Source: Flavihumibacter fluvii (lineage in GTDB: Bacteria; Bacteroidota; Bacteroidia; Chitinophagales; Chitinophagaceae). Taken from it: a DNA stretch of 64,000 nucleotides. Below the pieces are notes generated by a model. That model was not told where the DNA came from. It was given only the letters and a program-made list of their open reading frames with translations, and searched no databases. Numbering within the stretch: the first letter of the stretch is position 1; each line of letters opens with the position of its first letter. This document shows positions 5,241 to 55,286 of this stretch, in pieces. The position numbers and the translations under genes are program-made. The stretch is taken from contig NZ_CP092333.1 of NCBI RefSeq assembly GCF_018595675.2, positions 1,202,001 through 1,266,000 on the forward strand, given 5' to 3'.

Positions 5241-8200
5241 ATGAAACAAACAATGAAAAAAAGTTTGAGTAGGGGCGTACTCTTGCTTTTATTTACGATG
5301 CTAGTCAGTACGATTGCATTAGCCCAAAAAAAGGTTACTGGTAAAGTAACCGGGTCGGATGGTCTTCCGATTGCTGGTGCCAGTGTTCTGGTAAAAGGAA
5401 CAACCACTGGTACAGCTACACTTGAGGACGGAACGTTCTCTTTAAACGCTGAGCCAGGGGCCGTTTTGGTAGTCTCTGCTGCCGGAGTTAAAACAAAAGA
5501 AGTTACTGTTGGTGCTTCTGGTGTAGTAAGCGTGAATGTAGAGTCAATCGCCGGTAGTTTGAACGAGGTGATTGTAACGGGTTACACTGCCCAGCGTAAA
5601 AAAGATATCACCGGTGCGGTTGCAGTGGTTGATATGAAAGCCGCTGCTGCACAGCCTAACTCAAACGTGGAGAACTTATTACAAGGTCGTGCTTCGGGTG
5701 TGAACGTAACTTCAACAGGTGTTCCTGGTGCTGGTGCGAACATTCGGATTCGCGGTTTCAGTACGTTTGGTTCAAATGACCCACTGTTTGTGGTAGACGG
5801 TGTTCAATTGAATTCTGTGGCTGACCTTAATCCAGGTGATATTGAATCATTGCAGGTATTGAAAGATGCATCTGCCTCTGCGGTATATGGATCTGCTGCT
5901 GCAAATGGGGTTATCATCATTACTACCAAGAGAGGCAAATCAGGTAGTGCAAAAGTTTCTTATGATGCGTATTATGGTACACAGTATTACAACAAAAGTC
6001 TTGACCTGTTGAATACGCAAGAGTATGGTGATTACCTGTTTAAGTTGGCTCAAAATGCAGGACAGGTAGATGAGCAGGGCCGTTATAAGCACGGCCAGTA
6101 TGGCCCTGGTGAATTCGGTACCACTGCGCCGGTTATTCCTGAATATATCCTTGCAGGGAGTCAGTCTGGTTTAGCTGCTGGTGATCCGGCCGCTGATCCT
6201 TCCTTGTATAAGCTGGATATTTATAACGTGAATGATGATAGCAAAACCTATCTGATCACAAAAGCCAATAAATCAGGGACAGACTGGTTAGATGAAGTTA
6301 TTGATCCGGCTCCGATCATGAACCATTCCTTGAATGTTTCAGGCGGTACTGCCCAGGGTAACTATTTGTTCGGTCTAAACTATTTTGACCAAAAAGGTCT
6401 GGTTGTTAAAACGGGTTATAAGCGCTACTCTGCGAGGATGAACTCTAATTTTAATATCAAGAATCACATTAAGATAGGTGAGAACCTGCAGATCAACTAT
6501 ATTGATGAATTGCCAGGTTTTACCAACCAGGACGAAAGTAACGCAATCCTGATGGCCGTGCGGATGCAACCGATCATTCCCGTATATGACATCATGGGTA
6601 ACTGGGCCGGAACCCGTGGGTCTAACCTCGGTAACGCCGGTAACCCCGTTGCTGATCGTTACAGGGCTGTGGAGAATGGCAAAAGTTCCCGTATTGGCCT
6701 TATTGGTAACGTTTATGCTGAAATTGAATTTGCAAAGCATTTCGCTTTCCGCACTAATTTCGGTATAGACTATAATACATTTAATAACAATAGCTTTGGC
6801 CTGCCACGCTACGAAACTTCAGAAGGTCGTGGTGGTACAGGTAGTTATAGTGAGAACATGGGTACTGGTTATCAGCTCACCTGGTTCAACACCCTTCGTT
6901 ACCAGCAAAGTTTTGGTAAACATGATGTTTCTGCCTTATTAGGAACTGAAATGAAGCAAAATAAAGGCCGCGGTACAGGTGGTTCTTCTTCAGACTATTT
7001 CCTGTTTGACAGGAACTTCTACCAGGTAAGTGCTGGTTTTAACCCAACTCCAAGTGGTTACAGCTATGAATACCTGAGCCGTTTGTACACACCCATCCTC
7101 GCTAAACTGGATTATACCTATGATGGCAAATACATCATAAGTGGATCATTCAGAAGGGATGGTGCATCTAACGAATTCGGACCTGAAAACAAGTATGGTA
7201 ATTTCGGTGGTGTAAGCTTGGGTTGGAGATTGACTGAAGAAGGTTTCATGAAGAACAGTAAGATCTTCGATGACCTGAAATTGCGTGTTGGATATGGTGT
7301 ACTGGGTAACAACAGGATTCCTGAGTTTGGATTTGCCAACCTCAAGTATTATGAGCCTGGTTACACGACTTACCCATTATCAGGACAAAACACTTCAAAT
7401 CCTGGTTTGGCCCATAAAAGTGTGGGTAACCCGGATGTACAGTGGGAAGTTGCCGGTACTACCAACATTGGTATTGATGCGACCATGCTGAATAACAAAT
7501 TACAGGTGGTAATGGAACTTTACAATAAGAAAACATCTAAGTTGTTATTCCCTGTAGAACTTGATCCGACTATCTATGGTTATGTTGATCCGCAATCACG
7601 TAACATAGGTGAAATGACCAACCAGGGTTTGGACCTGACTGTTAACTATCGTGATAACCTGTCAAGTGACCTGAGGTTCGATGTCGGCATGAACTTTAGT
7701 ATGTATAAAAATAATGTTGACAAAATCGTTGGTGATTTCGTAGACGGTAGCCGTACCAGGATTGACCCTTTCAACCGCTCAGTGGTTGGACAACCTTTCA
7801 TGAGTTTCTACGGATACCAGATCGATGGTTTCTTTGATGACCAGGCTGAATTGGATGGTCTCGATCAGGGTGGTAAATTCCTGGGTGGCTGGAAATATAA
7901 AGATATCAGCGGACCAGATGGAAAAGCAGATGGCAAAATTGACCAGAATGATAAGACATTCATTGGCAATCCCCATCCTAAATTCACTGCTGGTTTTAAC
8001 CTGGGTCTGACCTATAAGCGTTGGGATATTACTGCGTTCCTGTATTGGAAATGTGGTGGCGATCTCGCAAACTATGTTCGTTACTGGACAGATTTCAACA
8101 CATTCCAGGGTAACCGTACAAAACGCGTATTATATGACAGCTGGGAAAAACCTGGTGATAACAAATTACTCCCACGCCTGAATGGTGCTGATGGAGCAAG

Positions 8201-8507
8201 TGGACAGGTTCCTGTAAGTTATTATATTGAGTCTGGTGGTTACCTGCGTTTGAAAAACCTGAACATTGGTTATACTTTCTCTCCTGAAATGACTAGAAAA
8301 GTAGGAATCGACAAATTCCGTCTGTACGTTCAAGCTCAGAATATCTTCACTATTACCGATTATTCTGGTATGGATCCTGAGATTGGCAACTTCAATACAG
8401 GTCGTGGTGATTATCGTGCTCAACGCGTTGACTACAACCTTGGTGTTGATGCCGGTAACTTCCCAGTTCCTCGTATGGTTACAGTAGGTCTTAATGTCAA
8501 TTTCTAA
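5241..8507 (+). CDS. SusC/RagA-family TonB-linked outer membrane transporter
   Basis: SusC-type proteins are TonB-dependent outer-membrane channels that import a ligand captured by a SusD-type lipoprotein lid. This 1088-residue protein has a signal peptide (second ATG at 5253; cleavage near IALAQ) and a carboxypeptidase-D-like regulatory domain (about 30-105, KVTGKVTGSDGLPIAGASV). A SusC signature around residue 110 (NEVIVTGYTAQRKKDITGAV) is followed by a plug domain (IRIRGFSTFGSNDPLFVVDG) and a beta-barrel to a C-terminal aromatic (LNVNF). There is no N-terminal STN signalling domain, so sigma/anti-sigma transduction is unlikely. Its stop overlaps the SusD start codon (TAATG), indicating translational coupling. 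No glycoside hydrolase is linked; the neighbours are an FG-GAP lipoprotein and a haloperoxidase-like lipoprotein, so the substrate need not be a glycan. Confidence 0.96.
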   Translation: MKQTMKKSLSRGVLLLLFTMLVSTIALAQKKVTGKVTGSDGLPIAGASVLVKGTTTGTATLEDGTFSLNAEPGAVLVVSAAGVKTKEVTVGASGVVSVNVESIAGSLNEVIVTGYTAQRKKDITGAVAVVDMKAAAAQPNSNVENLLQGRASGVNVTSTGVPGAGANIRIRGFSTFGSNDPLFVVDGVQLNSVADLNPGDIESLQVLKDASASAVYGSAAANGVIIITTKRGKSGSAKVSYDAYYGTQYYNKSLDLLNTQEYGDYLFKLAQNAGQVDEQGRYKHGQYGPGEFGTTAPVIPEYILAGSQSGLAAGDPAADPSLYKLDIYNVNDDSKTYLITKANKSGTDWLDEVIDPAPIMNHSLNVSGGTAQGNYLFGLNYFDQKGLVVKTGYKRYSARMNSNFNIKNHIKIGENLQINYIDELPGFTNQDESNAILMAVRMQPIIPVYDIMGNWAGTRGSNLGNAGNPVADRYRAVENGKSSRIGLIGNVYAEIEFAKHFAFRTNFGIDYNTFNNNSFGLPRYETSEGRGGTGSYSENMGTGYQLTWFNTLRYQQSFGKHDVSALLGTEMKQNKGRGTGGSSSDYFLFDRNFYQVSAGFNPTPSGYSYEYLSRLYTPILAKLDYTYDGKYIISGSFRRDGASNEFGPENKYGNFGGVSLGWRLTEEGFMKNSKIFDDLKLRVGYGVLGNNRIPEFGFANLKYYEPGYTTYPLSGQNTSNPGLAHKSVGNPDVQWEVAGTTNIGIDATMLNNKLQVVMELYNKKTSKLLFPVELDPTIYGYVDPQSRNIGEMTNQGLDLTVNYRDNLSSDLRFDVGMNFSMYKNNVDKIVGDFVDGSRTRIDPFNRSVVGQPFMSFYGYQIDGFFDDQAELDGLDQGGKFLGGWKYKDISGPDGKADGKIDQNDKTFIGNPHPKFTAGFNLGLTYKRWDITAFLYWKCGGDLANYVRYWTDFNTFQGNRTKRVLYDSWEKPGDNKLLPRLNGADGASGQVPVSYYIESGGYLRLKNLNIGYTFSPEMTRKVGIDKFRLYVQAQNIFTITDYSGMDPEIGNFNTGRGDYRAQRVDYNLGVDAGNFPVPRMVTVGLNVNF

Positions 8508-10279
8508 TGAAAATCAAAAGAACTAAGTGTATGAAAAAAATTAATAATAAGTATAAACTCAGGTTTACGATACCCTTGCTTCTACTGGTTACAGTTGGGT
8601 TCTGGGCCTGTAAGAAAAGCTTCCTGGAAACGACTCCATATGGACGCTATGGAGATGCTCAATTGTACAATGCCAAGGGTATTGACGCTCTTCTTGTAGG
8701 TGCCTATGGCATGCTCGATGGAGAATCTCAATTCAAGTATGGTGAAAACTGGGCCACACCTTCTACCAACTGGGTATATGGTGATATCGCTTCTGATGAT
8801 GCCTATAAAGGAACAGATGCGAATGACCAGCCGAATATGACCGCTGTGGAGATTTACAACTGGCTTCCTTCGAATAACTATTTTTATGCCCGTTGGATCT
8901 CCATTTATGATGGTATTGCCAGGGCAAATGACGTTATTAAGGTGCTGGCGCTTACAAAAGAGGCTAATCCGGCTGAGGTATCAGTTGAGTTTGAAAAAAA
9001 TGTAACTGCTGAAGCACGTTTCATTCGTGGCTGGCAACATTTTGAAGCCAAGCGTATGTGGGGTAATATTCCTTATGTTGATGAAACAGCTACAGAAAAT
9101 CCGGGAAATGGTGCCGCAGATGTGTGGGCAAAAATTGAAGCCGATTTTCAGGCTGCATATGATAATTTGCCTGGAACACAAAGCCAATTGGGCCGTGTAA
9201 ATAAATGGGCTGCTGGGGCCTACCTGGCAAAAGCTAAGTTGTACCAGGGTGATTACTCTGGAGCTCTTGCTATTTTTAATATTGTAAAAGCCCAAGGTGT
9301 AACACCTAAAGGAGATTCCTACAAACTTCTTGATGCTTATTGGCAGAACTTTGATCCCCGTTATGAAAACGGTCCTGAAAGTGTTTTTGCAATTCAGTTT
9401 GCCGCCCAGGGTTCCCAGGAAGGTGATGGTAGCCGTGGTTATGGCCTTGCCTTCCCTTATGGTGGTGACTTCGGTTGTTGCGGTTTCTTGCAGCCTTCTC
9501 AGAACCTGGTAAATGCATATAAAACAGATGCAAATGGTCTCCCTCTGCTGAACACATTCAACGATGTTGATGTGAAAAGTGACGAAGGTGTAAAATCTGC
9601 TGACCCTTATACCATTGGCACAGAAAATATGGATCCAAGGGTTGACTGGTCAGTTGGTCGTCGCTCTGTTCCATTCTGGGATTGGGGTCCGCACCCAGGC
9701 CAGAACTGGATCCGTGACCAGGGTTATGCAGGTCCATATAGCCCTAAAAAGCACATTTACTCAAGTGCTGATGAAAATGGTTTCAATGGAACTGGATGGA
9801 ATAACGTTACCGCAAAAAACTATGGTGCAATGCGTTATGCTGATATGTTGCTCATGATGGCCGAGTGTGAGGTTGAAGTTGGATCTCTTGATGTTGCACG
9901 TGGTTATGTTAATGAGGTGAGACTAAGGGCAGGTAAAGAAGAAAGTAAAGTTGTTGGTAGTCCAGCGAAATACCTGATCAAAACTTATGATGCAGCATGG
10001 ACCGATAAGGCTGTTGCGCGTCAGGCAGTTCGTTTTGAAAGAAGGTTGGAACTGGCTATGGAAGGTCACCGCTTCTTTGACCTGGTTCGTTATGACCAAA
10101 ACCCGGCAACACCAACTGAAGCCGAAACTACTTTGAATGCCTTTATTACAAAAGAAAAGGAAAAAAGAACTTATTTGAAAGCCGCAAACACTTTTGCAGC
10201 GAAAAATAAGGTGTATCCTATTCCGGAAAGGGCAATCGTATTGTCTAATGGTAAGATTACTCAAAATACAGGATACTAA
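8507..10279 (+). CDS. SusD/RagB-family nutrient-binding outer membrane lipoprotein
   Basis: SusD-like lipoproteins sit on the cell surface as the lid of the SusC channel and bind the ligand. The protein has a basic N-terminus, a hydrophobic stretch and a lipidation cysteine (VGFWACKKSFLETTP, Cys35 counted from the ATG at 8507). This is followed by TPR-like helices and the C-terminal SusD signature (AVRQAVRFERRLELAMEGHRFFDLVRYDQ; quoted parts: RFERRLELAMEGHRFFDLVR). It ends in the usual YPIPERAIVLSNGKITQNTGY region. The ATG overlaps the SusC stop; a second ATG at 8531 would shorten the basic tail and is also plausible. A rho-independent terminator follows directly, closing the SusCD transcript. 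The ligand cannot be predicted. Confidence 0.96.
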   Translation: MKIKRTKCMKKINNKYKLRFTIPLLLLVTVGFWACKKSFLETTPYGRYGDAQLYNAKGIDALLVGAYGMLDGESQFKYGENWATPSTNWVYGDIASDDAYKGTDANDQPNMTAVEIYNWLPSNNYFYARWISIYDGIARANDVIKVLALTKEANPAEVSVEFEKNVTAEARFIRGWQHFEAKRMWGNIPYVDETATENPGNGAADVWAKIEADFQAAYDNLPGTQSQLGRVNKWAAGAYLAKAKLYQGDYSGALAIFNIVKAQGVTPKGDSYKLLDAYWQNFDPRYENGPESVFAIQFAAQGSQEGDGSRGYGLAFPYGGDFGCCGFLQPSQNLVNAYKTDANGLPLLNTFNDVDVKSDEGVKSADPYTIGTENMDPRVDWSVGRRSVPFWDWGPHPGQNWIRDQGYAGPYSPKKHIYSSADENGFNGTGWNNVTAKNYGAMRYADMLLMMAECEVEVGSLDVARGYVNEVRLRAGKEESKVVGSPAKYLIKTYDAAWTDKAVARQAVRFERRLELAMEGHRFFDLVRYDQNPATPTEAETTLNAFITKEKEKRTYLKAANTFAAKNKVYPIPERAIVLSNGKITQNTGY

Positions 10280-10298
10280 TTAGTATATGTCAATTGTA

Positions 10299-10332
10299 CA
10301 AATGCGCTCCCACCGGGGAGCGCATTTTTTTT
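10299..10332 (+). terminator. Rho-independent terminator after susD-like gene
   Basis: A perfect stem aatgcgctccc / gggagcgcatt with a four-base loop is followed by eight T residues. It separates SusC/SusD from the downstream FG-GAP lipoprotein unit. Confidence 0.92.
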
Positions 10333-10353
10333 AAATAATAGCCAAACTGTGGG

Positions 10354-10382
10354 TTGCACAGCCGCGGCCTTATTTATATTTG
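10354..10382 (+). promoter_or_regulatory. Promoter of the FG-GAP lipoprotein / haloperoxidase unit
   Basis: TTG (10354-10356) and TATATTTG (10375-10382), separated by 18 bases, match the Bacteroidota -33/-7 consensus. The position fixes the start of the next gene at the ATG at 10406 rather than at 10349, because transcription would begin near 10388. Confidence 0.78.
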
Positions 10383-10405
10383 CAAGTAATTATCTACAAA
10401 ACATC

Positions 10406-13400
10406 ATGCGCATAGACCTGAACATTCCATCATCCATTGTAGTAACTATAGCTGTTGTTTTTGCTTCCTGTTCTGGTGACAGCGGAACCCATCTGTTTAA
10501 AAAGATAAGTGCTGAAAAATCGGGAATTACATTTAATAATGAGATTATTGAAGACAGTGCCATTAACCCCATCAACATGGAGTTTATTTACAATGGCTCC
10601 GGTGTGGCCATTGGTGATTTTAATAACGACAGCCTGCCCGATATATATTTTACCGGTAGCAGGGTGTCTAATGAATTGTACCTGAATGAAGGTGGACTGA
10701 AATTTAAGAATGTCACAGCGGCTTCCAAAACCGCTAACCAAGGCAAATGGAGCAGCTCTGCTTCTGTTGTTGATATTAATAATGATGGCCTCCAGGATAT
10801 CTATGTAAGCAATAGTGTGAAATCTAATGGAAATGACCGTAAGAATTTATTGTTTATAAACCAGGGTGTCTCCAGCGATGGGATTCCGAAATTTGCAGAA
10901 ATGGCCGCTGATTATGGACTGGATGACTCCAGTCATACGGTGATTACTGCTTTTTTCGATTATGATAATGATGGCGATCTGGATGCCTATATGGTGACAA
11001 CTACACCGATTAAAAGATCTCCCACCATTTTCCAGGAATATAAGCAGGATAATTCCAATACCAGCGAGGATAAATTATTCCGGAATGATTTTGACAGTGC
11101 CAGTGGCCATCCGAAATATACTGACGTTTCCCTGCCGGCCGGTATATCTAAGAAAGGTTATGGCCTGGGACTTAATATCGCAGATATTAACCAGGATGGC
11201 TGGAAGGATATTTATGTCACCAACGATTTCAATAATAGCGATCATCTTTTTATCAATAATAAAAACGGCACATTTACCGACCAGGTCAACCAATATTTCA
11301 AGCATACCAGCTTTAATGCCATGGGAAACGATATCGCAGACATCAATAATGATGGTTTGGTTGATGTCATCACGGCCGATATGAATCCCAAAGACAGCTA
11401 CCGCAAGAAAATGAATATGAATGCGAACAGCTACCAGGGCTATAAGAATCTTATGCGGTATGGCTACACGATCCAATATGTTCGTAATACCCTGCAACTC
11501 AACCAGGGCTTTATTTCTGCTGACCTGGCCGATACACTGCACCATCCCATATTTAGTGATGTGGCATTTTATTCCGGTATTGCAGAAACCGACTGGAGCT
11601 GGAGCCCGGCTGTTGCTGACTTCGATAATGATGGCCTCAGGGATATCATCATTACCAATGGTTACCCCCGTGATGTTACAGATAATGATTTCGTTTCTTA
11701 TCGGGCAGAAGCTAACCGTTATGCTTCATGGGACGCCATGATGGAACAGATTCCCCAGATCAAGATACCTAACTACGTATACCACAATAAAGGCAATGCC
11801 GTGTTCGATGATGTGACCAAGGCATGGGGTATGGATATTCCTTCTTTTTCCAATGGGGCAGCATATGCTGATCTGGACCTCGACGGGGACCTCGATTATA
11901 TTGTTAACAACATCAATGATCCGGCATTCCTCTTCGAGAATACACTTAACAATAAAAAGGATCCACCACATTTTATACGCTTTGGTTTTGACGGGCCGGC
12001 CCTGAATAAGGGCGGGTTTGGGGCAGTGTTACAACTATATAATGGCGGCCGGTTATACCAGGTGTATGAACATACCCCATATCGGGGTTACCTCACCAGT
12101 GTTGAACCTGTTGCCCATTTTGGCCTGGATAGTTTGGCTTTGCTCGATTCAGTTAAAGTGATCTGGCCGGATGGTAAATCGCAATTGCTCACAAGTCAAA
12201 AAGCTAACCAGACTATTACACTACATTATTCTGATGCCATCATAGGAACCGGGTCTAACCTCTACCCACCGGCATCAATCCCTTCCTTGTTTGTTGACCA
12301 GACCCAAAATGCCGGCCTCAATTATTCTCACAGTGAACCTGATTATATTGATTTTAACATCCAGCGGTTATTGCCCCACAAATTTTCTGAATATGCGCCT
12401 GGGCTGGCTGTAGGTGATCTGGATGGAAACGGTTTGGATGATTTGGTGTCAACCGGTTCCTACGCGAATAGTGGCCAATTGTTTTTCCAACAGAATAACG
12501 GAAAGTTCATCCGGAAAGAATTGATACCGGGTACCAATTCTTCCAATAAAACCCGGGAAGAATTGGGCATCCTTATTTTTGATGCCGATAAAGACGGTGA
12601 CCAGGATATTTATACGACTGGTGGTGGCTACGAACAAAAATCCGGATCTCCAGCATACCAGGACATGTTATATATTAATGATGGGAAAGGGAATTTTAAA
12701 ATGGATACGCTTGCGATTCCGTCGAATTTTACCAGTAAATCCTGCGTACGTGCTGCTGATATTGACCAGGATGGTGACCTTGATCTTTTCCTGGCAGGAA
12801 GGGTAGAACCTGGTGCTTATCCAAAACCTGTTTCCAGCTTTATTTTACGGAACGATTCAAAACCTGGCCAACCAAAATTTACAGATGTTACTAATTACGT
12901 AGCGAAGGAAATGGCCGCACTTGGATTGGTCTGCGATGGAATTTTCACCGATTATGATAATGATGGCTGGATTGACCTTGTGCTTGCTGGTGAATGGATG
13001 CCGATCACAGTCTTTAAAAATGAAAGGGGAGTATTTAGAAACCTCACTGCTGCCACTGGAATTGCTGATCGTATTGGTTGGTGGAATAGCCTTGCTGCAG
13101 GTGATTTTGATAATGACGGCGATATTGACTACATCGCAGCAAACCTTGGGCTCAATTCTTTTTATCGCGCCAGCGATAAATACCCTATTGGTATCTACGC
13201 AAAGGATTTTGATGGCAATGGCAGCTATGACGCTTTTCCCTCTTTATTCCTGCCCTACAATTTGACGGACAGCACCATAGTTGAATTCCCGGCGCAGACC
13301 CGCGACGATATCATCAAACAAATGATCAGTATGCGGGAGCGTTTCCCCAATTATAAGGCATTTGCCCAAACACCCATGCAAAGCCTGTTTACGAAGGAAC

Positions 13401-13999
13401 AGTTAAAAGGCGCTTTGGTCCTGAAAGCAAATTATTTGCAATCGGGTTTTATCCGCAACAACGGGAATGGCAAGTTCAGTATTGAAGCATTGCCCATGCA
13501 GGCACAATTGTCTGCCTTGAATGGTATGACCGTTGATGACTTTGACGGCGATGGTATAGCAGATGTAGCCATCGTAGGCAATGATTATGGTACGGAGGTT
13601 TCTGTTGGCAGGTATGATGCATTAAATGGGTTGATCCTGAAAGGAGACGGCAATGGCGGATTCAGGCCATTACCCATTGAAACAGCTGGACTTTTTGTGC
13701 CGGGAAATGCGAGAGCCCTCGTGAAGTTGTTAGGTAAGGATAATACCTACCTGTTGGCTGCGAGCCAGAACAACGGACCGCTAAAACTGTTTGGCGAGCG
13801 AAATAAATCAGGAAATATTATTCGCCTGAAAGATGATGAAGTGGCTGCAATCATTACCTTGCCAGACGGAAAAAAACAAAAACAGGAATTTTATTTTGGT
13901 GCATCCTTTTTATCTCAATCTGGACGATTCACAGTTATCCCGGTAAATGCTACCAGAGTTGAATTCATCAATTCAAAAGGTGAAAAACGAAGCCTTTAG
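10406..13999 (+). CDS. FG-GAP/VCBS-repeat lipoprotein with ASPIC/UnbV domain
   Basis: The product (about 1197 residues) is a lipoprotein (SSIVVTIAVVFASC, then SGDSG). Its body carries 14 calcium-binding Asp-rich FG-GAP motifs of the form DxDxDGxxD. Seven lie before an ASPIC/UnbV-type segment (GGFGAVLQLYNGGRLYQVYE; VKVIWPDGKSQ) and seven after it. Examples are DFNNDSLPDIY, DINNDGLQDIY and DYDNDGDLD in the first set, and DLDGNGLDDL, DIDQDGDLDL and DFDGDGIADV in the second. This suggests two seven-bladed beta-propellers. The family (CRTAC1-like) is often found beside SusD genes in Bacteroidota. A role in surface binding or scaffolding is inference. It has its own promoter (10354-10382) and is followed 27 bases later by the haloperoxidase-like gene. 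The frame is open to 10349, but that lies upstream of the predicted transcription start. Confidence 0.93.
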   Translation: MRIDLNIPSSIVVTIAVVFASCSGDSGTHLFKKISAEKSGITFNNEIIEDSAINPINMEFIYNGSGVAIGDFNNDSLPDIYFTGSRVSNELYLNEGGLKFKNVTAASKTANQGKWSSSASVVDINNDGLQDIYVSNSVKSNGNDRKNLLFINQGVSSDGIPKFAEMAADYGLDDSSHTVITAFFDYDNDGDLDAYMVTTTPIKRSPTIFQEYKQDNSNTSEDKLFRNDFDSASGHPKYTDVSLPAGISKKGYGLGLNIADINQDGWKDIYVTNDFNNSDHLFINNKNGTFTDQVNQYFKHTSFNAMGNDIADINNDGLVDVITADMNPKDSYRKKMNMNANSYQGYKNLMRYGYTIQYVRNTLQLNQGFISADLADTLHHPIFSDVAFYSGIAETDWSWSPAVADFDNDGLRDIIITNGYPRDVTDNDFVSYRAEANRYASWDAMMEQIPQIKIPNYVYHNKGNAVFDDVTKAWGMDIPSFSNGAAYADLDLDGDLDYIVNNINDPAFLFENTLNNKKDPPHFIRFGFDGPALNKGGFGAVLQLYNGGRLYQVYEHTPYRGYLTSVEPVAHFGLDSLALLDSVKVIWPDGKSQLLTSQKANQTITLHYSDAIIGTGSNLYPPASIPSLFVDQTQNAGLNYSHSEPDYIDFNIQRLLPHKFSEYAPGLAVGDLDGNGLDDLVSTGSYANSGQLFFQQNNGKFIRKELIPGTNSSNKTREELGILIFDADKDGDQDIYTTGGGYEQKSGSPAYQDMLYINDGKGNFKMDTLAIPSNFTSKSCVRAADIDQDGDLDLFLAGRVEPGAYPKPVSSFILRNDSKPGQPKFTDVTNYVAKEMAALGLVCDGIFTDYDNDGWIDLVLAGEWMPITVFKNERGVFRNLTAATGIADRIGWWNSLAAGDFDNDGDIDYIAANLGLNSFYRASDKYPIGIYAKDFDGNGSYDAFPSLFLPYNLTDSTIVEFPAQTRDDIIKQMISMRERFPNYKAFAQTPMQSLFTKEQLKGALVLKANYLQSGFIRNNGNGKFSIEALPMQAQLSALNGMTVDDFDGDGIADVAIVGNDYGTEVSVGRYDALNGLILKGDGNGGFRPLPIETAGLFVPGNARALVKLLGKDNTYLLAASQNNGPLKLFGERNKSGNIIRLKDDEVAAIITLPDGKKQKQEFYFGASFLSQSGRFTVIPVNATRVEFINSKGEKRSL

Positions 14000-14026
14000 T
14001 TCTGTAATAAAATTGATTTCAATCTT

Positions 14027-15355
14027 ATGCGCAATAACATGAAAGTGTATTCATTATTTGTGGTGATGCTGATTGTATTGGCCGGTTGTAAAAATCTTCC
14101 TAAGGACCAGGCAGAACTGGTTTCCCATGATGTACAATTGGTGCATAGTATGGTCGGTCGTTTGAATGATGTGGTCATCTACGAGATATTTGCACCCCCA
14201 GTGGCATCACGGATTTACGCCTATTCCACACTTGCACTTTATGAAGCGAGCCGCGGCAAGGATACAGCCTATGAAAGCATTACGGATAAACTAAACGGAT
14301 TTCCTAAAATGCCGGTTCCCGAAATAGGCAAAGCCATTGATTTTGAGGTTGCCGGGACAAATGCCTTTTTTGCAGTTATTGAAAAATTCACCTTTACCAA
14401 GGATTCCTCCAGGGTAACCCGGGATAAATTGCTTGCTCAAATGAAAGCCGGACTTGACGATGAATTGTATGAACGTTCCTTGGCCTTTGGGAAATCAGTA
14501 GCTGATTCCATTATTAAAAGAGCTGCAACTGACAATTATAAACAGGTCCAGGGAATGCCCAGGTATTCTGTTGTTGATGCTCCCGGTCATTGGAAGACCA
14601 CCCCGCCAGATTATATGGATGCGATCCAGCCTTATTGGGCATTGATGAAGCCATTGGTTATGGATAGTGCCGCCCAGTTCAAACCAGTTCCGCCGCCTGC
14701 ATTTGACCTGAAAAAAGGGTCGCAATTTTATAATGAAGTCAACGAGGTTTACCAGGTAAGCAAAAATCTCACAGATGAACAAATTGAGATTGCAAATTTT
14801 TGGGATGATAATCCCAGTGTGGTAACCCATGTTGGTCACTTGACTTTCGCTAATAAGAAAAACAGTCCCGGTGGGCATTGGATTAATATAACCTCCATTT
14901 CATGCCAGAAGGCTGGCTACAATTGGATGCAATCCGCAAGGACTTATGCTCTTGTTTCGGTAGCCATGTATGAAGGGTTCTTATCCTGCTGGGATGAGAA
15001 ATACCGCAGCCAGTATATACGGCCGGTAACAGTCATCAACGAAAATATTGACCCCAATTGGGAACCACTCCTGCAGACGCCGCCATTTCCTGAATATACC
15101 AGCGGCCACAGTGTGGCATCATCAACCATTGCGGCTGTACTCACCAAAATTTTTGGAGACAATTTTTCATTTACGGATGATTATGAAGTACCTTATATTG
15201 GCATCCAACGTAGTTTTCCTTCATTTATAAAGGCATCTGAAGAAGCCTGTATCAGTCGTTTATATGGAGGGATACATTTTAATTCTGCAATTGTTAACGG
15301 AAGAACACAGGGTAGGGCATTAGGCGCATTTATTTGCGAAAAACTAGATTTGTAA
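14027..15355 (+). CDS. Vanadium-dependent haloperoxidase-like lipoprotein (PAP2 superfamily)
   Basis: Vanadium haloperoxidases oxidise halides with hydrogen peroxide; relatives in the PAP2 superfamily are acid phosphatases. The protein has a canonical lipobox (VLAGC, Cys21) and then an all-helical body. The vanadate/phosphate-binding signature is present in order. Lys325 and Arg332-Pro333 give K-x6-RP (KYRSQYIRP), Ser359-Gly360-His361 lie in PEYTSGH, and Ser410-Arg411 with His417 give SR-x5-H (SRLYGGIH). The Asp found four residues after the last His in classical haloperoxidases is Ala421 here. The order of residues fits the haloperoxidase branch, but substrate and metal cannot be proved from sequence. 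It follows the FG-GAP lipoprotein by 27 bases and precedes the EamA gene by 1 base, so the three probably form an operon. It probably acts in the periplasm or at the surface. Confidence 0.88.
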   Translation: MRNNMKVYSLFVVMLIVLAGCKNLPKDQAELVSHDVQLVHSMVGRLNDVVIYEIFAPPVASRIYAYSTLALYEASRGKDTAYESITDKLNGFPKMPVPEIGKAIDFEVAGTNAFFAVIEKFTFTKDSSRVTRDKLLAQMKAGLDDELYERSLAFGKSVADSIIKRAATDNYKQVQGMPRYSVVDAPGHWKTTPPDYMDAIQPYWALMKPLVMDSAAQFKPVPPPAFDLKKGSQFYNEVNEVYQVSKNLTDEQIEIANFWDDNPSVVTHVGHLTFANKKNSPGGHWINITSISCQKAGYNWMQSARTYALVSVAMYEGFLSCWDEKYRSQYIRPVTVINENIDPNWEPLLQTPPFPEYTSGHSVASSTIAAVLTKIFGDNFSFTDDYEVPYIGIQRSFPSFIKASEEACISRLYGGIHFNSAIVNGRTQGRALGAFICEKLDL

Positions 15356-15356
15356 A

Positions 15357-16244
15357 TTGACCATTTTTTTGCTTACAGCTATTGCCGTTCTTTTACGGAT
15401 CATATCCAATCCGGTTGGCAATGTTTTCCAAAAACAATTAACGTCAGGTGGTCATCACCCTTTGCTGGTTAATTTCCTTACTTATCTGTTGCTCAGTGTA
15501 CTTGTGATTACACTTGCATGGCCAGTTCATTGGCTTGAACTTCCACCAGGCTTTTGGTATAATGCCATTGCTGCCGGTATTGCCGGTGCTTTAGGTAATG
15601 GCTTCCTGGTCAAAGCATTACAAATGGGGGACCTTTCTGTACTTGGCCCGGTGAATTCCTATAAGTCGGTAATAGGGATAATTGTAGGGATTTTTCTCCT
15701 GGGTGAAGTGCCAAATATTTGGGGACTTCTTGGTGTGGTGTTGATCATTTGGGGAAGTTATTTTGTCCTGGATACAACAGAGGAACGTTTTAGCTGGGCA
15801 CTCCTCAAAAAGAAAGAAATCCAGTACCGGATATGGGCCATGGTGTTGACCGCTATTGAGGCAGTATTGATCAAGAAGATTATCCTGTATTCTTCCCCAA
15901 CTACGGCATTCATTTGCTGGTGCTGGTTTGGGGCATTTTTCTCCGGATTATTATTGTTCTTTTTCAGACAGAATATCGCTTTGGTTAATGGCCCTTTAAA
16001 AGGCGGAATAATCCTCAAATATGCTTTGCTGGTGACATGTATAGGGATCATGCAGTTTACTACCAATTATGCATTCGACCATATGCAGGTAGGGTATGCT
16101 TTATCACTTTTCCAGTTGTCAACCATTATCAGTGTATTGTTGGGGCATCGGCTTTTCGGTGAAAAACATATCCGCCAGAAACTGATCGGTTCTGCCATCA
16201 TGATCATCGGTTCAGTGATTATCATCTTGTTGAAAAACAAATGA
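15357..16244 (+). CDS. EamA/DMT-family inner membrane transporter
   Basis: This 295-residue integral membrane protein has about ten hydrophobic segments in two halves, as in the drug/metabolite transporter superfamily. Typical features are GPVNSYKSVIGIIVGIFLLGE closing the first half (quoted part: SVIGIIVGIFLLGE) and LFQLSTIISVLLGHRLFGEK closing the second. Loss of the substrate or solute across the inner membrane is the usual role; the solute is unknown. The start is a TTG one base after the haloperoxidase stop; no ATG is available before the first membrane helix. The tight spacing implies translational coupling and a functional link to the haloperoxidase-like enzyme. The 3' end converges on the alcohol dehydrogenase with 3 bases between them. 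Confidence 0.88.
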   Translation: MTIFLLTAIAVLLRIISNPVGNVFQKQLTSGGHHPLLVNFLTYLLLSVLVITLAWPVHWLELPPGFWYNAIAAGIAGALGNGFLVKALQMGDLSVLGPVNSYKSVIGIIVGIFLLGEVPNIWGLLGVVLIIWGSYFVLDTTEERFSWALLKKKEIQYRIWAMVLTAIEAVLIKKIILYSSPTTAFICWCWFGAFFSGLLLFFFRQNIALVNGPLKGGIILKYALLVTCIGIMQFTTNYAFDHMQVGYALSLFQLSTIISVLLGHRLFGEKHIRQKLIGSAIMIIGSVIIILLKNK

Positions 16245-37873: not shown

Positions 37874-39781
37874 TTAATAATGCCAGCGCACAAAGGCTTC
37901 CATAGCAGCGTATTGTGTCAGTCCCAATTGGGCATATAATTTTGCCGTGTTTCCGTTGCGGTCTTCAGCCCTTTGCCAGAATTCGCGCGAATCGGAGCCT
38001 TGGAAAGGCACCATATCTTTCTGGGACTGGTGGATGAAGATCCCGAAACGCTTTTTCATTACCTGGTCGGGACTCATTGGAATGGCCATTTCGATTTCCT
38101 CGATATTCCATTCCTGCCAGGCGCCTTTATACAGCCAGACCCAGCAATCCTTGATCCATTCTTCCCCTGCTGCTTTTAACCGGCGCAATGATTCAAAGAC
38201 TACATCAAGGCAAACTTTATGGGTACCATGCGGGTCTGCCAGGTCACCGGCACAGAATATCTGGTGGGGTTTAACTTCCTTTAATAATTCGATGGTCAAG
38301 AGAACATCTTCCTCGCCCATTGGTTTTTTCTCAACCCTGCCGGTTTCGTAAAAAGGCAGGTTTTGGAAATGTACATTTTTGTCATTTATGCCCACATACC
38401 GGCAGGTAGCTTTGGCTTCGCCGCGGCGAATCAGCCCTTTAATGGCCCGGATCTGAGCTGTATCACTTTCACTGGTTTTTTTGCTGGACAGGAATTTCTG
38501 CGCTTCCGCAAGGATATCGCGCGATTTGCTGGAATCAATTCCGGATATTTCTTCAAAACCTACAGCGAAATCAATAAAACGGGTCACGAATTCGTCGGTT
38601 ACCGCAATATTTCCACTGGTCTGGTAGGCTACATGGACTTCATGCCCCTGGTCGTGCAAACGCATAAAAGTGCCACCCATACTAATGATATCATCATCAG
38701 GGTGAGGGGAGAAGATGAGGCTTCTTTTTGGATAGGGTATTGACCTTTCAGGGTGGGTCGGAATAAAGGCATTTGGTTTTCCACCTGGCCACCCGGTGAT
38801 GCTATCCCGCAGCATGTAAAATACCTGCAGGTTGATTTCATAAGCATCACCTTGTTCAACCAGCAGATCACCCAGGCCGCTGTCATTATAATCACTATTT
38901 GTGAGAGCCAATACAGGTTTGCCCAGCTTTAAGGCCATGCTCACCACTGCCTTTTTAATCATTTTGGGTGTCCAGTCAATGTCGCCGGTCAACCAGGGTG
39001 AACGGAAACGGGTCAATTCACTGGCGGCAGTTTCATCCAGCACATAAATGGCATCGTTATGCTGTTGTAATAATGAGGCTGGAATTTGCTCGGTCACATG
39101 CTCTTCAACAGCTTTCTGGATGACCGGAGCTTTCATTTGTCCCCAGGCCATCAGGTAGATTTTCCGGGCCTTCATGATGGTGTCAATTCCCATGGTTACT
39201 GCAAGTCGGGGTACCTGCGAAATATTTGCAAACTCAAAGGAATTGGCGATCCTGGTTGAATTATCGAGGGTGATCAGCCTGGTCCGGGAAAAACGGCTTG
39301 ATCCTGGTTCGTTAAAGCCGATATGGCCATTGTTTCCAATTCCCAGGATCTGCACATCAATACCGCCTACTGACTCGATCAATGCCTCATAATCGTGGCA
39401 GTATTTTTTGATGGCTTCCTTGGGCCATTCGCCATTCGGGATGTGTACATTAGCCATATCGATATCCACATGATTGAACAACTGTTCTTTCATATAGCGG
39501 TTATAGCTCTGCAGGGCATCTTTATCGATCGGGTAGTATTCATCGAGGTTAAAACTGATCACATTTTTAAAACTGAGTCCTTCTTCCTTGTGCAGCCGCA
39601 CTAATTCCGCATAAACTGTTTTAGGCGAAGATCCTGTCGCTAAGCCTAAAATACAGGGTTTGCCTTCTGACTGCTTCTGGCGTATTATTGCGGCAATTTC
39701 CCTGGCAATAAAGGTTGAACCATCTTTCAGGCTCGGGAAAATTTTGACGGGGATTTTTTCAAATGAATCAACCATGCTCAT
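37874..39781 (-). CDS. nagB: Glucosamine-6-phosphate deaminase fused to a PIG-L/LmbE deacetylase-like domain
   Basis: NagB converts glucosamine-6-phosphate to fructose-6-phosphate and ammonia. Residues about 1-270 form the NagB domain, with LGLATGSSPKTVYAEL, ISFNLDEYYPIDKDALQSYN (catalytic Asp) and LGIGNNGHIGFNEPGS. A linker leads to a C-terminal PIG-L domain (about 370-630) with the zinc motif in FSPHPDDDIISMGGTFMRLHDQ and a later His in DPHGTHKVC. PIG-L proteins de-N-acetylate GlcNAc derivatives. At 635 residues it is more than twice the length of E. coli NagB (266). Fused forms are known in Bacteroidota. The neighbouring GH20 gene is upstream on the same strand (44-base gap), so the pair probably works on N-acetylglucosamine. 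Confidence 0.95.
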   Translation of the reverse strand: MSMVDSFEKIPVKIFPSLKDGSTFIAREIAAIIRQKQSEGKPCILGLATGSSPKTVYAELVRLHKEEGLSFKNVISFNLDEYYPIDKDALQSYNRYMKEQLFNHVDIDMANVHIPNGEWPKEAIKKYCHDYEALIESVGGIDVQILGIGNNGHIGFNEPGSSRFSRTRLITLDNSTRIANSFEFANISQVPRLAVTMGIDTIMKARKIYLMAWGQMKAPVIQKAVEEHVTEQIPASLLQQHNDAIYVLDETAASELTRFRSPWLTGDIDWTPKMIKKAVVSMALKLGKPVLALTNSDYNDSGLGDLLVEQGDAYEINLQVFYMLRDSITGWPGGKPNAFIPTHPERSIPYPKRSLIFSPHPDDDIISMGGTFMRLHDQGHEVHVAYQTSGNIAVTDEFVTRFIDFAVGFEEISGIDSSKSRDILAEAQKFLSSKKTSESDTAQIRAIKGLIRRGEAKATCRYVGINDKNVHFQNLPFYETGRVEKKPMGEEDVLLTIELLKEVKPHQIFCAGDLADPHGTHKVCLDVVFESLRRLKAAGEEWIKDCWVWLYKGAWQEWNIEEIEMAIPMSPDQVMKKRFGIFIHQSQKDMVPFQGSDSREFWQRAEDRNGNTAKLYAQLGLTQYAAMEAFVRWHY

Positions 39782-39825: not shown

Positions 39826-41472
39826 CTAGTATTCTAAGTATGCATTACTGTAATTGATGCCCCATTGCTGGTAACGCGATAAAATTACCGGGATTTTTTG
39901 CTGGAATGCTTTCCAGTCGCGTTTTCCCTTCTGGCTCCATAAAACCTCACTTAATGCACTGAGCCGGGGGAAGATCATGTATTCCACTTTGGAAGGATTA
40001 CCCATATACTCAGTCCAAACATTTGCCTGCGCCCCTAATATAAACTTTTCTTTGCCGGAAGGTAATTCTTTAGGGATGGGCTCGTAATTATATACTTTAT
40101 CCAGTGGAAGGAAGCCGCCTATGACCACGGAGTCTTCTTTTTTTGTTTGGGCATAGTCAAAATAAACATAACTATTGGGTGTCATAATCACCTGGTGGTT
40201 GGAATTGGCTGCTTCAATGCCGCCTGCTTCTCCGCGCCAGCTCATTACAATTGCATTGGGTGCAAGGCCACCTTCCAAAATCTCATCCCAACCAATCATA
40301 ATCCTTCCTTTTTGGTTAATATATTTTTCCATACGCTGGATGAAATAGCTTTGTAAACCATGCTCATCTTTCAACCCCTTTGATTTTATCAACTCCTGGC
40401 AAAAAGCAGATTTCTTCCAATTGGTTTTCGGGCATTCGTCGCCACCTACATGAATGTATTTGGAAGGGAATAAGGCGATCACTTCATCCAGTACATCCTG
40501 CAGGAAGGTAAATGTATTTTCAGTGGGTGCAAATACATCATTGTACACGCCCCAACTTTGTTGTACCTGTTTACCGGTAGTGTCCCCGGACCATTCACTT
40601 TTTGGATTAAAATAAAATTGTTTGGTGGGTTCATCAGGGAAACAGCTCAATTCAGGGTAAGCGGCTATCGCTGCTGAAGCATGTCCAGGCATTTCGATCT
40701 CAGGGATGATCGTCACGTAGCGGCTTTCAGCATATTTAACGATATCCCGGATCTCATCCTGGGTATAAAATCCGCCACTCCGGGTATGATCATTTCCTTT
40801 CCCGGGATAGTTACCAATTATGGTTCCATTTCTCCATGCGCCTACGGATGTCAGCCTGGGATATTTTTTTATTTCTATACGCCAGCCCTGGTCATCGGTC
40901 AGGTGCCAATGGAAGTAATTCATCTTATGCAGTGCAATAAAGTCGATAAATTTTTTCACGAAGGTCACATCCATAAAATGCCTGCCAACATCCAGCATCA
41001 GGCCACGGTACCCAAAACGGGGATAATCTTTGATGTTTATGTAAGATAGTGGCAGGGATCGGTTGATTTCTGCGGCGGGAAGCAATTGCAAAAGGGTCTG
41101 TATCCCATAAAAAACACCTGTTTCATCCTGCCCAATAATATTTACTCCTTTATTATTAACCTGCAGCGTGTAGGTTCCCGCCACTGCATTTGCTATGGGT
41201 TGAACCTGAAGGTTGATATCAGTGGGTGTTTTTTTGGGATTAACGGCCAGCTGGTAACCATACATTTTCATCAGGTAGTCATTCAGGAATACCACTGAAC
41301 TTTCAAGGCCTTTGCCTTTCACACTGATCGCAGAAAAAGGTGTGATGGGGTATTGGGCAGCGATCCGGGGCATGATCATTTGAACTGGTTCGGGAATGAT
41401 CGAAATTGGCTGCGCTAAGGTTGTTGCAGACAGTACACCACCTGCAAAAAGTGACACTACGGTTTTTCGCAT
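39826..41472 (-). CDS. Secreted beta-N-acetylhexosaminidase, glycoside hydrolase family 20
   Basis: This second GH20 enzyme (548 residues) begins with a signal peptide (RKTVVSLFAGGVLSATTLAQ). A GH20b-like domain (ISIIPEPVQM) and the catalytic barrel follow, with YFHWHLTDDQGWRIEIKKYP and HVGGDECPKTNWKKS at about residue 344, which holds the Asp-Glu pair. It lacks the chitobiase C-terminal extension of the enzyme at 289-2190. It should release GlcNAc from chitin fragments or glycans in the periplasm or at the surface. It is upstream of the NagB/PIG-L fusion and probably in the same transcript. Confidence 0.95.
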   Translation of the reverse strand: MRKTVVSLFAGGVLSATTLAQPISIIPEPVQMIMPRIAAQYPITPFSAISVKGKGLESSVVFLNDYLMKMYGYQLAVNPKKTPTDINLQVQPIANAVAGTYTLQVNNKGVNIIGQDETGVFYGIQTLLQLLPAAEINRSLPLSYINIKDYPRFGYRGLMLDVGRHFMDVTFVKKFIDFIALHKMNYFHWHLTDDQGWRIEIKKYPRLTSVGAWRNGTIIGNYPGKGNDHTRSGGFYTQDEIRDIVKYAESRYVTIIPEIEMPGHASAAIAAYPELSCFPDEPTKQFYFNPKSEWSGDTTGKQVQQSWGVYNDVFAPTENTFTFLQDVLDEVIALFPSKYIHVGGDECPKTNWKKSAFCQELIKSKGLKDEHGLQSYFIQRMEKYINQKGRIMIGWDEILEGGLAPNAIVMSWRGEAGGIEAANSNHQVIMTPNSYVYFDYAQTKKEDSVVIGGFLPLDKVYNYEPIPKELPSGKEKFILGAQANVWTEYMGNPSKVEYMIFPRLSALSEVLWSQKGKRDWKAFQQKIPVILSRYQQWGINYSNAYLEY

Positions 41473-55213: not shown

Positions 55214-55244
55214 GTTTGCTTTTTTTTGATAAAATTGTATATTG
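55214..55244 (+). promoter_or_regulatory. Candidate promoter of the type IX cargo gene
   Basis: TTTG (55214-55217), 20 bases, then TATATTG (55238-55244), one T short of the -7 consensus. If it is used, transcription starts near 55250, downstream of the formal TTG start at 55242. Confidence 0.5.
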
Positions 55245-55286
55245 TCGCGCATCGCAAGCGATTGTATCAATTTAAACCTATCCAGT

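Follow-up and report, generated by a model that had tools for sequence, protein, structure and literature searches.

What would a SusCD importer pair do beside a haloperoxidase? The question is raised by a locus of Flavihumibacter fluvii (genome of 5.0 Mb in one contig, NZ_CP092333.1), analyzed here in a stretch of 64,000 nucleotides, positions 1,202,001 to 1,266,000 of the forward strand (the window). An earlier note on this DNA had described five consecutive plus-strand genes at 5241–16244, and all five open reading frames (ORFs) are confirmed by coordinates and family matches: SusC, SusD, an FG-GAP/ASPIC protein, a vanadium-dependent haloperoxidase (VHPO), and an EamA transporter. SusCD pairs are generally taken for importers that work with hydrolases. 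We tentatively propose, with a probability of about 0.4, a surface halide-oxidation module that makes hypohalous acid from H2O2, has a CRTAC1-like scaffold, stands beside a SusCD importer, and is co-inherited. The proposal draws on the recurrence of the gene unit, agreement between the trees, conserved catalytic residues, concordant anchoring signals, and a predicted propeller fold.

Regions around VHPO, SusD, and EamA matches were fetched, and genes were called by script; loci are cited by their L numbers. The order SusC, SusD, FG-GAP/ASPIC, VHPO recurs, sometimes with intervening genes, within the window's family as well as in Pedobacter and Flavobacterium, and its recurrence in many genomes places it beyond chance. 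The window's own genome has seven VHPO genes, of which four adjoin FG-GAP genes, and three have SusC/D and FG-GAP upstream in the same run. For the 48 VHPO genes in 39 family regions, FG-GAP directly adjoins in 21 cases (in one, L063, on the opposite strand) and is at most three genes away in 30, while SusC/D and FG-GAP stand upstream in the run in 20. The named genomes (18 loci, 19 VHPO genes) show FG-GAP adjoining 15 VHPO genes and the full unit for 11. The locus L170, in which VHPO and FG-GAP are masked by long antisense frames, was left out of the analysis. In 117 genomes of the family, a distance of 6 kb or less to one of the 60 best VHPO genes is seen for at least 20 of the 44 best FG-GAP genes; the count is a lower bound, as at most five FG-GAP candidates were scored per genome. 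Conservation of the five-gene order in relatives, the check named in the earlier note, is seen for SusC, SusD, FG-GAP, and VHPO, which are neighbors there, and not for EamA.

The unit varies in content. Between FG-GAP and VHPO, several loci have a DUF1573 lipoprotein-like protein (two tested) or a short FG-GAP protein; a small extra gene near FG-GAP is also seen in L042, L045–L048, L055, L057, and L102, encoding DUF1573 in L046 and L047 and a redoxin-like protein in L042. A second cassette type, which several genomes of the window's family share with Pedobacter, has the order SusC, SusD-like_2 (hereafter SusD2), redoxin, CxxCH protein, FG-GAP, VHPO. The CxxCH protein weakly matches Cu2_monoox_C, and a PDB sequence search with this Cu-monooxygenase-like protein gave no convincing relative. 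The redoxin (CPLC) and CxxCH protein precede FG-GAP–VHPO in L082:3020-6591, L065, L067–L069, L083, L086, L087, L089, L090 (= L173), L097, and L172. A second VHPO cluster, with no SusCD in the run, is seen in L034, L041, L064, L070, L072–L074, L076, L078, and L092; it consists of a distant VHPO (25–29% identical), an outer-membrane-barrel-like protein, a second VHPO (39–43%), and often a 185-aa protein and GH65. One copy of it lies in the window's own genome at about 4584–4589 kb.

Presence in the 117 family genomes was scored at E to 1e-3 for VHPO, E to 1e-60 for FG-GAP, and E to 1e-50 for SusD. VHPO and FG-GAP are both present in 60 genomes and both absent from 52, with five discordant (Fisher test 6e-27, ignoring phylogeny). 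Their tree distances correlate with r 0.76 over 46 cassettes. Re-pairing was performed only inside genomes with at least two cassettes, to remove the species tree. For VHPO and FG-GAP (13 cassettes, five genomes), one of 1152 arrangements reaches the observed fit, and it is the true one; for SusD with FG-GAP and for SusD with VHPO (eight cassettes, three genomes), the result is 1/72 each.

Lipoprotein-like signals are seen for 19/21 VHPO and 18/21 FG-GAP proteins in cassettes with SusD, for 2/14 VHPO and 0/14 FG-GAP proteins in cassettes with SusD2 (seven of these 14 loci are from Pedobacter), and for 10/11 VHPO and 8/11 FG-GAP proteins with no SusD in the run. The two lipoprotein-like VHPO of the SusD2 type (L094, L096) resemble ordinary secretion signals. 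A strict lipobox pattern was dropped, having missed plain cases (VHPO 5/21, 0/14, and 6/11, respectively; FG-GAP 15/46). The concordant anchoring signals are the strongest hint that FG-GAP and VHPO may act in one place.

FG-GAP and VHPO are a tight pair, with a median gap of 5 bases (n = 46). The ORFs of SusC and SusD overlap by 1 base, SusC having a TonB plug and CarboxypepD_reg and the adjacent SusD a lipoprotein signal, as in SusCD transporters; the closest solved chains are 5t3r_D ("SusC homolog", by phmmer) for the window SusC and 5lx8_A and 5t3r_A ("SusD homolog") for the window SusD. Between SusD and FG-GAP lies a predicted hairpin (−21.2 kcal/mol, z −4.15, with a U-run after the stem), followed by TATATTTG, which we take to be a Bacteroidota −7 element (consensus TAnnTTTG). 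Flavihumibacter profundi (L081) keeps both. The strict two-box promoter TTTG-N17-22-TAnnTTTG has no match at the FG-GAP start (four in the window, 3.0 expected), hence, the promoter case rests on TATATTTG kept in two species. The earlier claim that the FG-GAP unit has its own promoter is thus backed by the hairpin and the element, shared with F. profundi, and not by the two-box pattern; a separate promoter ahead of FG-GAP is probable, and SusCD and FG-GAP–VHPO probably make up two transcription units.

A hairpin with a T-run is found in 29/34 gaps from SusD to a full-length FG-GAP gene vs 0/46 gaps from FG-GAP to VHPO, one locus (L090 = L173) being entered twice in the gap counts. The hairpin is present in 34/41 gaps if all FG-GAP frames after SusD are taken, in 13/13 gaps from SusD2 to redoxin, in 8/18 gaps from SusD to other genes, and in 83/385 other gaps of 40–400 bases. 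Due to its presence in the SusD2-to-redoxin and SusD-to-other gaps, the hairpin marks the end of SusD units generally and is not special to FG-GAP.

Residues 8–441 of the window VHPO align to the crystallized Zobellia galactanivorans enzyme VIPO1 (4CIT/4USZ) with 427 bits and E 6e-127 (phmmer, PDB), which makes the two full-length homologs. They share the segments WDEKYRS-IRP, EYTSGH, and SR-YGGIH. Residues W322, K325, R332, S359, G360, H361, R411, and H417 are all present; the vanadate site is presumably formed by K325, R332, S359-G360-H361, R411, and H417 (Lys, two Arg, Ser-Gly-His, and the distal His). In an alignment of 25 VHPO sequences, the window protein included, Trp322, Lys325, Arg332, His361, Arg411, and His417 are invariant (25/25), Gly360 is kept in 24/25, and Ser359 in 22/25. 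The closest named relative of the gene is from F. profundi (77% identical), and an Aquimarina relative (L085) is 47% identical. The window VHPO is likely an active haloperoxidase and probably makes reactive halogen. In the earlier note, it was suggested that the ligand could be chemically modified at the surface by oxidation, halogenation, or dephosphorylation; the residues for haloperoxidase chemistry are kept, and dephosphorylation is the weaker chemistry.

The FG-GAP ORF opens at GTG 10349, although ATG 10406, which gives a lipoprotein-like signal (...VVFASC), is the more likely start. The domain order is propeller 1, ASPIC domain, propeller 2, so that an FG-GAP propeller precedes UnbV_ASPIC. 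The AlphaFold2 model (alignment of 30 sequences) has a mean predicted local distance difference test score of 89.6 and a predicted template modeling (TM) score of 0.89. Its best fold match is murine CRTAC1 (9ETN; E 5e-27, TM 0.72 by target length), and CRTAC1 is also the best profile match (7.6e-28). The 14 repeats that had been noted earlier in this protein correspond to 14 loops of the Ca type, D-x-[DN]-x-[DN]-xxx-D, seven before ASPIC (71–489) and seven after it (671–1045). Twelve of the 14 match the stricter D-x-[DN]-x-D-xxx-D, where 1000 shuffles give a mean of 0.2 and a maximum of 3, and these 12 are kept in 23–30 of the 30 sequences. The natural reading is that of two seven-bladed propellers, with loops predicted to be of the Ca-binding type. 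While the FG-GAP propeller and the ASPIC domain are shared with CRTAC1, the bacterial protein adds a second propeller and a lipoprotein signal. In the window's own genome, FG-GAP_3 is matched at least 112 times (150/185 candidates scored), in ten long frames of 1104–1239 aa and two shorter ones.

In the window's phylum, 65/345 genomes have a VHPO of the window type. The best-matching 30 loci show FG-GAP within 1.5 kb in 20 cases, and the wider regions show it at most three genes away in four more (L174, L178, L181, L184); it is not seen in the wider regions of L175, L176, L177, L180, L183, and L185, six of the 30. L186 and L188 also have SusCD upstream. In L140/L169, a VHPO gene whose product is 98.4% identical to crystallized Zobellia VIPO1 is preceded, at a distance of 7 bases, by three FG-GAP genes in a row (one was tested, and has ASPIC); after it comes the gene for a 299-aa protein with a GyrI-like domain. 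The position of this VHPO gene directly behind FG-GAP genes suggests that the characterized iodoperoxidase type shares the FG-GAP–VHPO module. The window VHPO has the same active-site segments, but stands behind SusCD and a single FG-GAP gene in a Flavihumibacter genome, and its activity is predicted from sequence. VIPO1, described by Fournier et al. in 2014, is reportedly active on iodide.

In the proposed module, SusC and SusD would form a TonB-driven importer with a lid. The FG-GAP/ASPIC double-propeller lipoprotein and then the VHPO lipoprotein would be made behind the terminator, probably from a separate promoter. The FG-GAP protein, with its Ca-type loops and CRTAC1-like half, would most likely contact and hold VHPO and/or an organic target at the surface, where both would be exposed. 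From H2O2 and a halide, most likely iodide and possibly bromide, VHPO would make hypohalous acid, which would oxidize or halogenate material bound there, the substrate of the module, and SusCD would take up the ligand or its oxidized fragments.

A number of observations weigh against this proposal. SusD and VHPO are both present in 40 of the 117 family genomes, VHPO only in 22, SusD only in eight, and neither in 47; the SusCD link is looser than that between FG-GAP and VHPO, and the predicted terminator separates the two pairs. In the window clade, SusCD is also seen beside FG-GAP where VHPO is missing, or beside hydrolases; some VHPO genes lack FG-GAP or SusCD neighbors; and no FG-GAP–VHPO follows the two SusD genes that match best outside the window's own genome (L099, L100). 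Such other partners of SusCD, and of VHPO in the other cluster (barrel-like protein, GH65), mean that the roles can be swapped. None of the five genes encodes an H2O2-forming enzyme. Matching trees and anchoring are also expected if the genes only move as a block. The co-occurrence test for FG-GAP and VHPO was made without phylogenetic correction; the family regions are no random sample but were drawn from the best VHPO matches (62/117 family genomes with a match); among the cassettes are several near-copies (seven in Pedobacter, two in Flavobacterium); and the lipoprotein rule is home-made and loose, accepting odd Cys positions (e.g., in L033, L060, and L062).

Some of these points agree with a different role, possible though rather unlikely, in which FG-GAP–VHPO is a surface peroxide sink or a maker of hypohalous acid for defense or signaling (acting on peroxide, competitors, or signal molecules), and SusCD imports something unrelated. 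The terminator and the probable separate promoter point in this direction, as do FG-GAP–VHPO pairs without SusCD in the run (e.g., L041, L060, L062, L088; in L031 SusCD adjoins on the opposite strand) and the looser co-occurrence of SusD with VHPO (40 genomes with both, 30 discordant). Haloperoxidases are suggested to be an oxidative-stress defense in a passage of PMC4926216, and an excerpt of PMC9296495 gives Zobellia vIPO3 as upregulated on a brown alga. However, SusD trees match both VHPO and FG-GAP trees within genomes (1/72 each, from the eight cassettes of three genomes), and VHPO and FG-GAP differ in anchoring according to the SusD type. A doubtful proposition is oxidative pre-treatment, where VHPO, in the second cassette type together with the redoxin and the CxxCH protein, would be an accessory like those of polysaccharide utilization loci (PULs) and loosen a complex glycan or glycoconjugate for nearby hydrolases. 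GH92 (L053, L094), GH2 (L061), and GH29 with GH3 (L083) are found near cassettes by Pfam, GH20 near the cassettes of L045 and L047 by similarity and in the window at 289–2253; ORFs sized about like the L083 pair (a likeness in size only) follow VHPO in L086, L087, and L090; and the lectin PVL is at rank 47 among the fold matches of the FG-GAP protein. Still, no single hydrolase family runs across the cassettes, many neighboring ORFs being outside the test, and the window unit has none.

The PAP2 match of the enzyme leads to the improbable case of an acid phosphatase, acting on a surface-bound ligand to release phosphate. Vanadate sites resemble phosphate sites, and acid phosphatases do appear in the PDB search, with weak matches (E 0.23–0.32), against the 427-bit full-length match to haloperoxidase and the three segments common with the Zobellia enzyme. 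Finally, the earlier note had the product moved through both membranes, with EamA as the inner-membrane step. As it stated, a single base separates the VHPO stop from the start of the transporter gene (a TTG); the two are probably co-transcribed in the window, and they are also adjacent in F. profundi. Strong EamA orthologs occur in nine of the 117 family genomes, the window's own included (a tenth match is a fragment), and in 8/8 genomes other than these two Flavihumibacter species EamA is not next to VHPO; in L124 three genes separate it from a different VHPO upstream. This gene order led to the rejection of EamA as a core part; it is a local addition outside the conserved module, and a five-gene system with EamA carrying the product onward is very improbable.

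Table 1. Features of the F. fluvii locus (positions in the window)
Feature	Position	Strand	Evidence
SusC/RagA TonB-dependent outer-membrane transporter, 1088 aa	5241..8507	+	TIGR04056, 801 bits
SusD/RagB lipoprotein-like protein, 590 aa	8507..10279	+	PF07980, 149 bits; signal end ...FWACKK
Hairpin in the SusD/FG-GAP gap, putative intrinsic terminator or attenuator	10300..10332	+	12-pair stem and T-run
TATATTTG, candidate −7 promoter element of the Bacteroidota type	10375..10382	+	direct reading of the sequence
FG-GAP/UnbV_ASPIC lipoprotein-like protein, 1197 aa	10406..13999	+	PF13517 (FG-GAP_3, 219 bits), PF07593 (UnbV_ASPIC, 66 bits)
VHPO, lipoprotein-like, 442 aa	14027..15355	+	PAP2, 37 bits; phmmer 4CIT/4USZ
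EamA/DMT-family inner-membrane transporter, 295 aa, TTG start	15357..16244	+	PF00892, 77 bits

On one side the flanks contain AdoHcyase and GH20 genes; the genes on the other side encode a zinc alcohol dehydrogenase, an ABC exporter, and a DUF5916 protein. The absence of a glycoside hydrolase, claimed in the earlier note, holds among the five genes, while the GH20 gene (minus strand) is 3 kb upstream of SusC, beyond the AdoHcyase gene. Pfam/TIGRFAM matches reveal neither carbohydrate-active enzymes nor a sensor/regulator among the five genes, as a canonical PUL would have. The window has two GH20 genes, 289–2253 and 39826–41472, both on the minus strand; relatives of the first, 55–56% identical, adjoin VHPO cassettes in L045 and L047. 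The second adjoins a gene (37874–39781) for one protein with glucosamine-6-phosphate isomerase-like and PIG-L de-N-acetylase-like domains. A 975-aa protein at 55242–58169 has the CHU_C type IX secretion signal domain as its sole Pfam match.

Each of the protein families is already known; no description of their SusCD/FG-GAP/VHPO coupling was found in the open-license PMC papers searched. The SusCD importers of PULs (5T3R and related) share with the window the SusC–SusD order, the TonB plug, and the SusD lipoprotein signal, whereas the window unit has an oxidative enzyme and a double propeller in place of glycoside hydrolases, and no regulator. According to passages of PMC5064120, iodine uptake by Arenibacter sp. 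C-21 needs glucose, O2, and Ca2+, a haloperoxidase was proposed, and at least five homologs of 4USZ are present; the Ca2+ need has a parallel in the Ca-type loops of the window FG-GAP protein, in passages that do not give the gene neighborhood. An extended form of the proposal, which we consider unlikely, is that VHPO of the Bacteroidota, among them the Zobellia iodoperoxidase, provide the catalytic half and a Ca2+-loaded CRTAC1-like double propeller the other half of a surface complex, SusCD being the import gate for oxidized or halogenated products, iodine species among them.

If the halide-oxidation module is real, the hydrolase-centered picture of SusCD would be extended to oxidative chemistry by a recurring unit in which the importer goes with a haloperoxidase and a Ca-type propeller. 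The module would also provide the iodoperoxidase type crystallized from Zobellia with a genetic context and link Bacteroidota of soil and sea to the halogen cycle. The Ca2+-loaded complex, if true, would moreover account for why haloperoxidase-linked uptake of iodine by Arenibacter requires Ca2+, and oxidative, non-hydrolytic SusCD loci would then form a class of their own.

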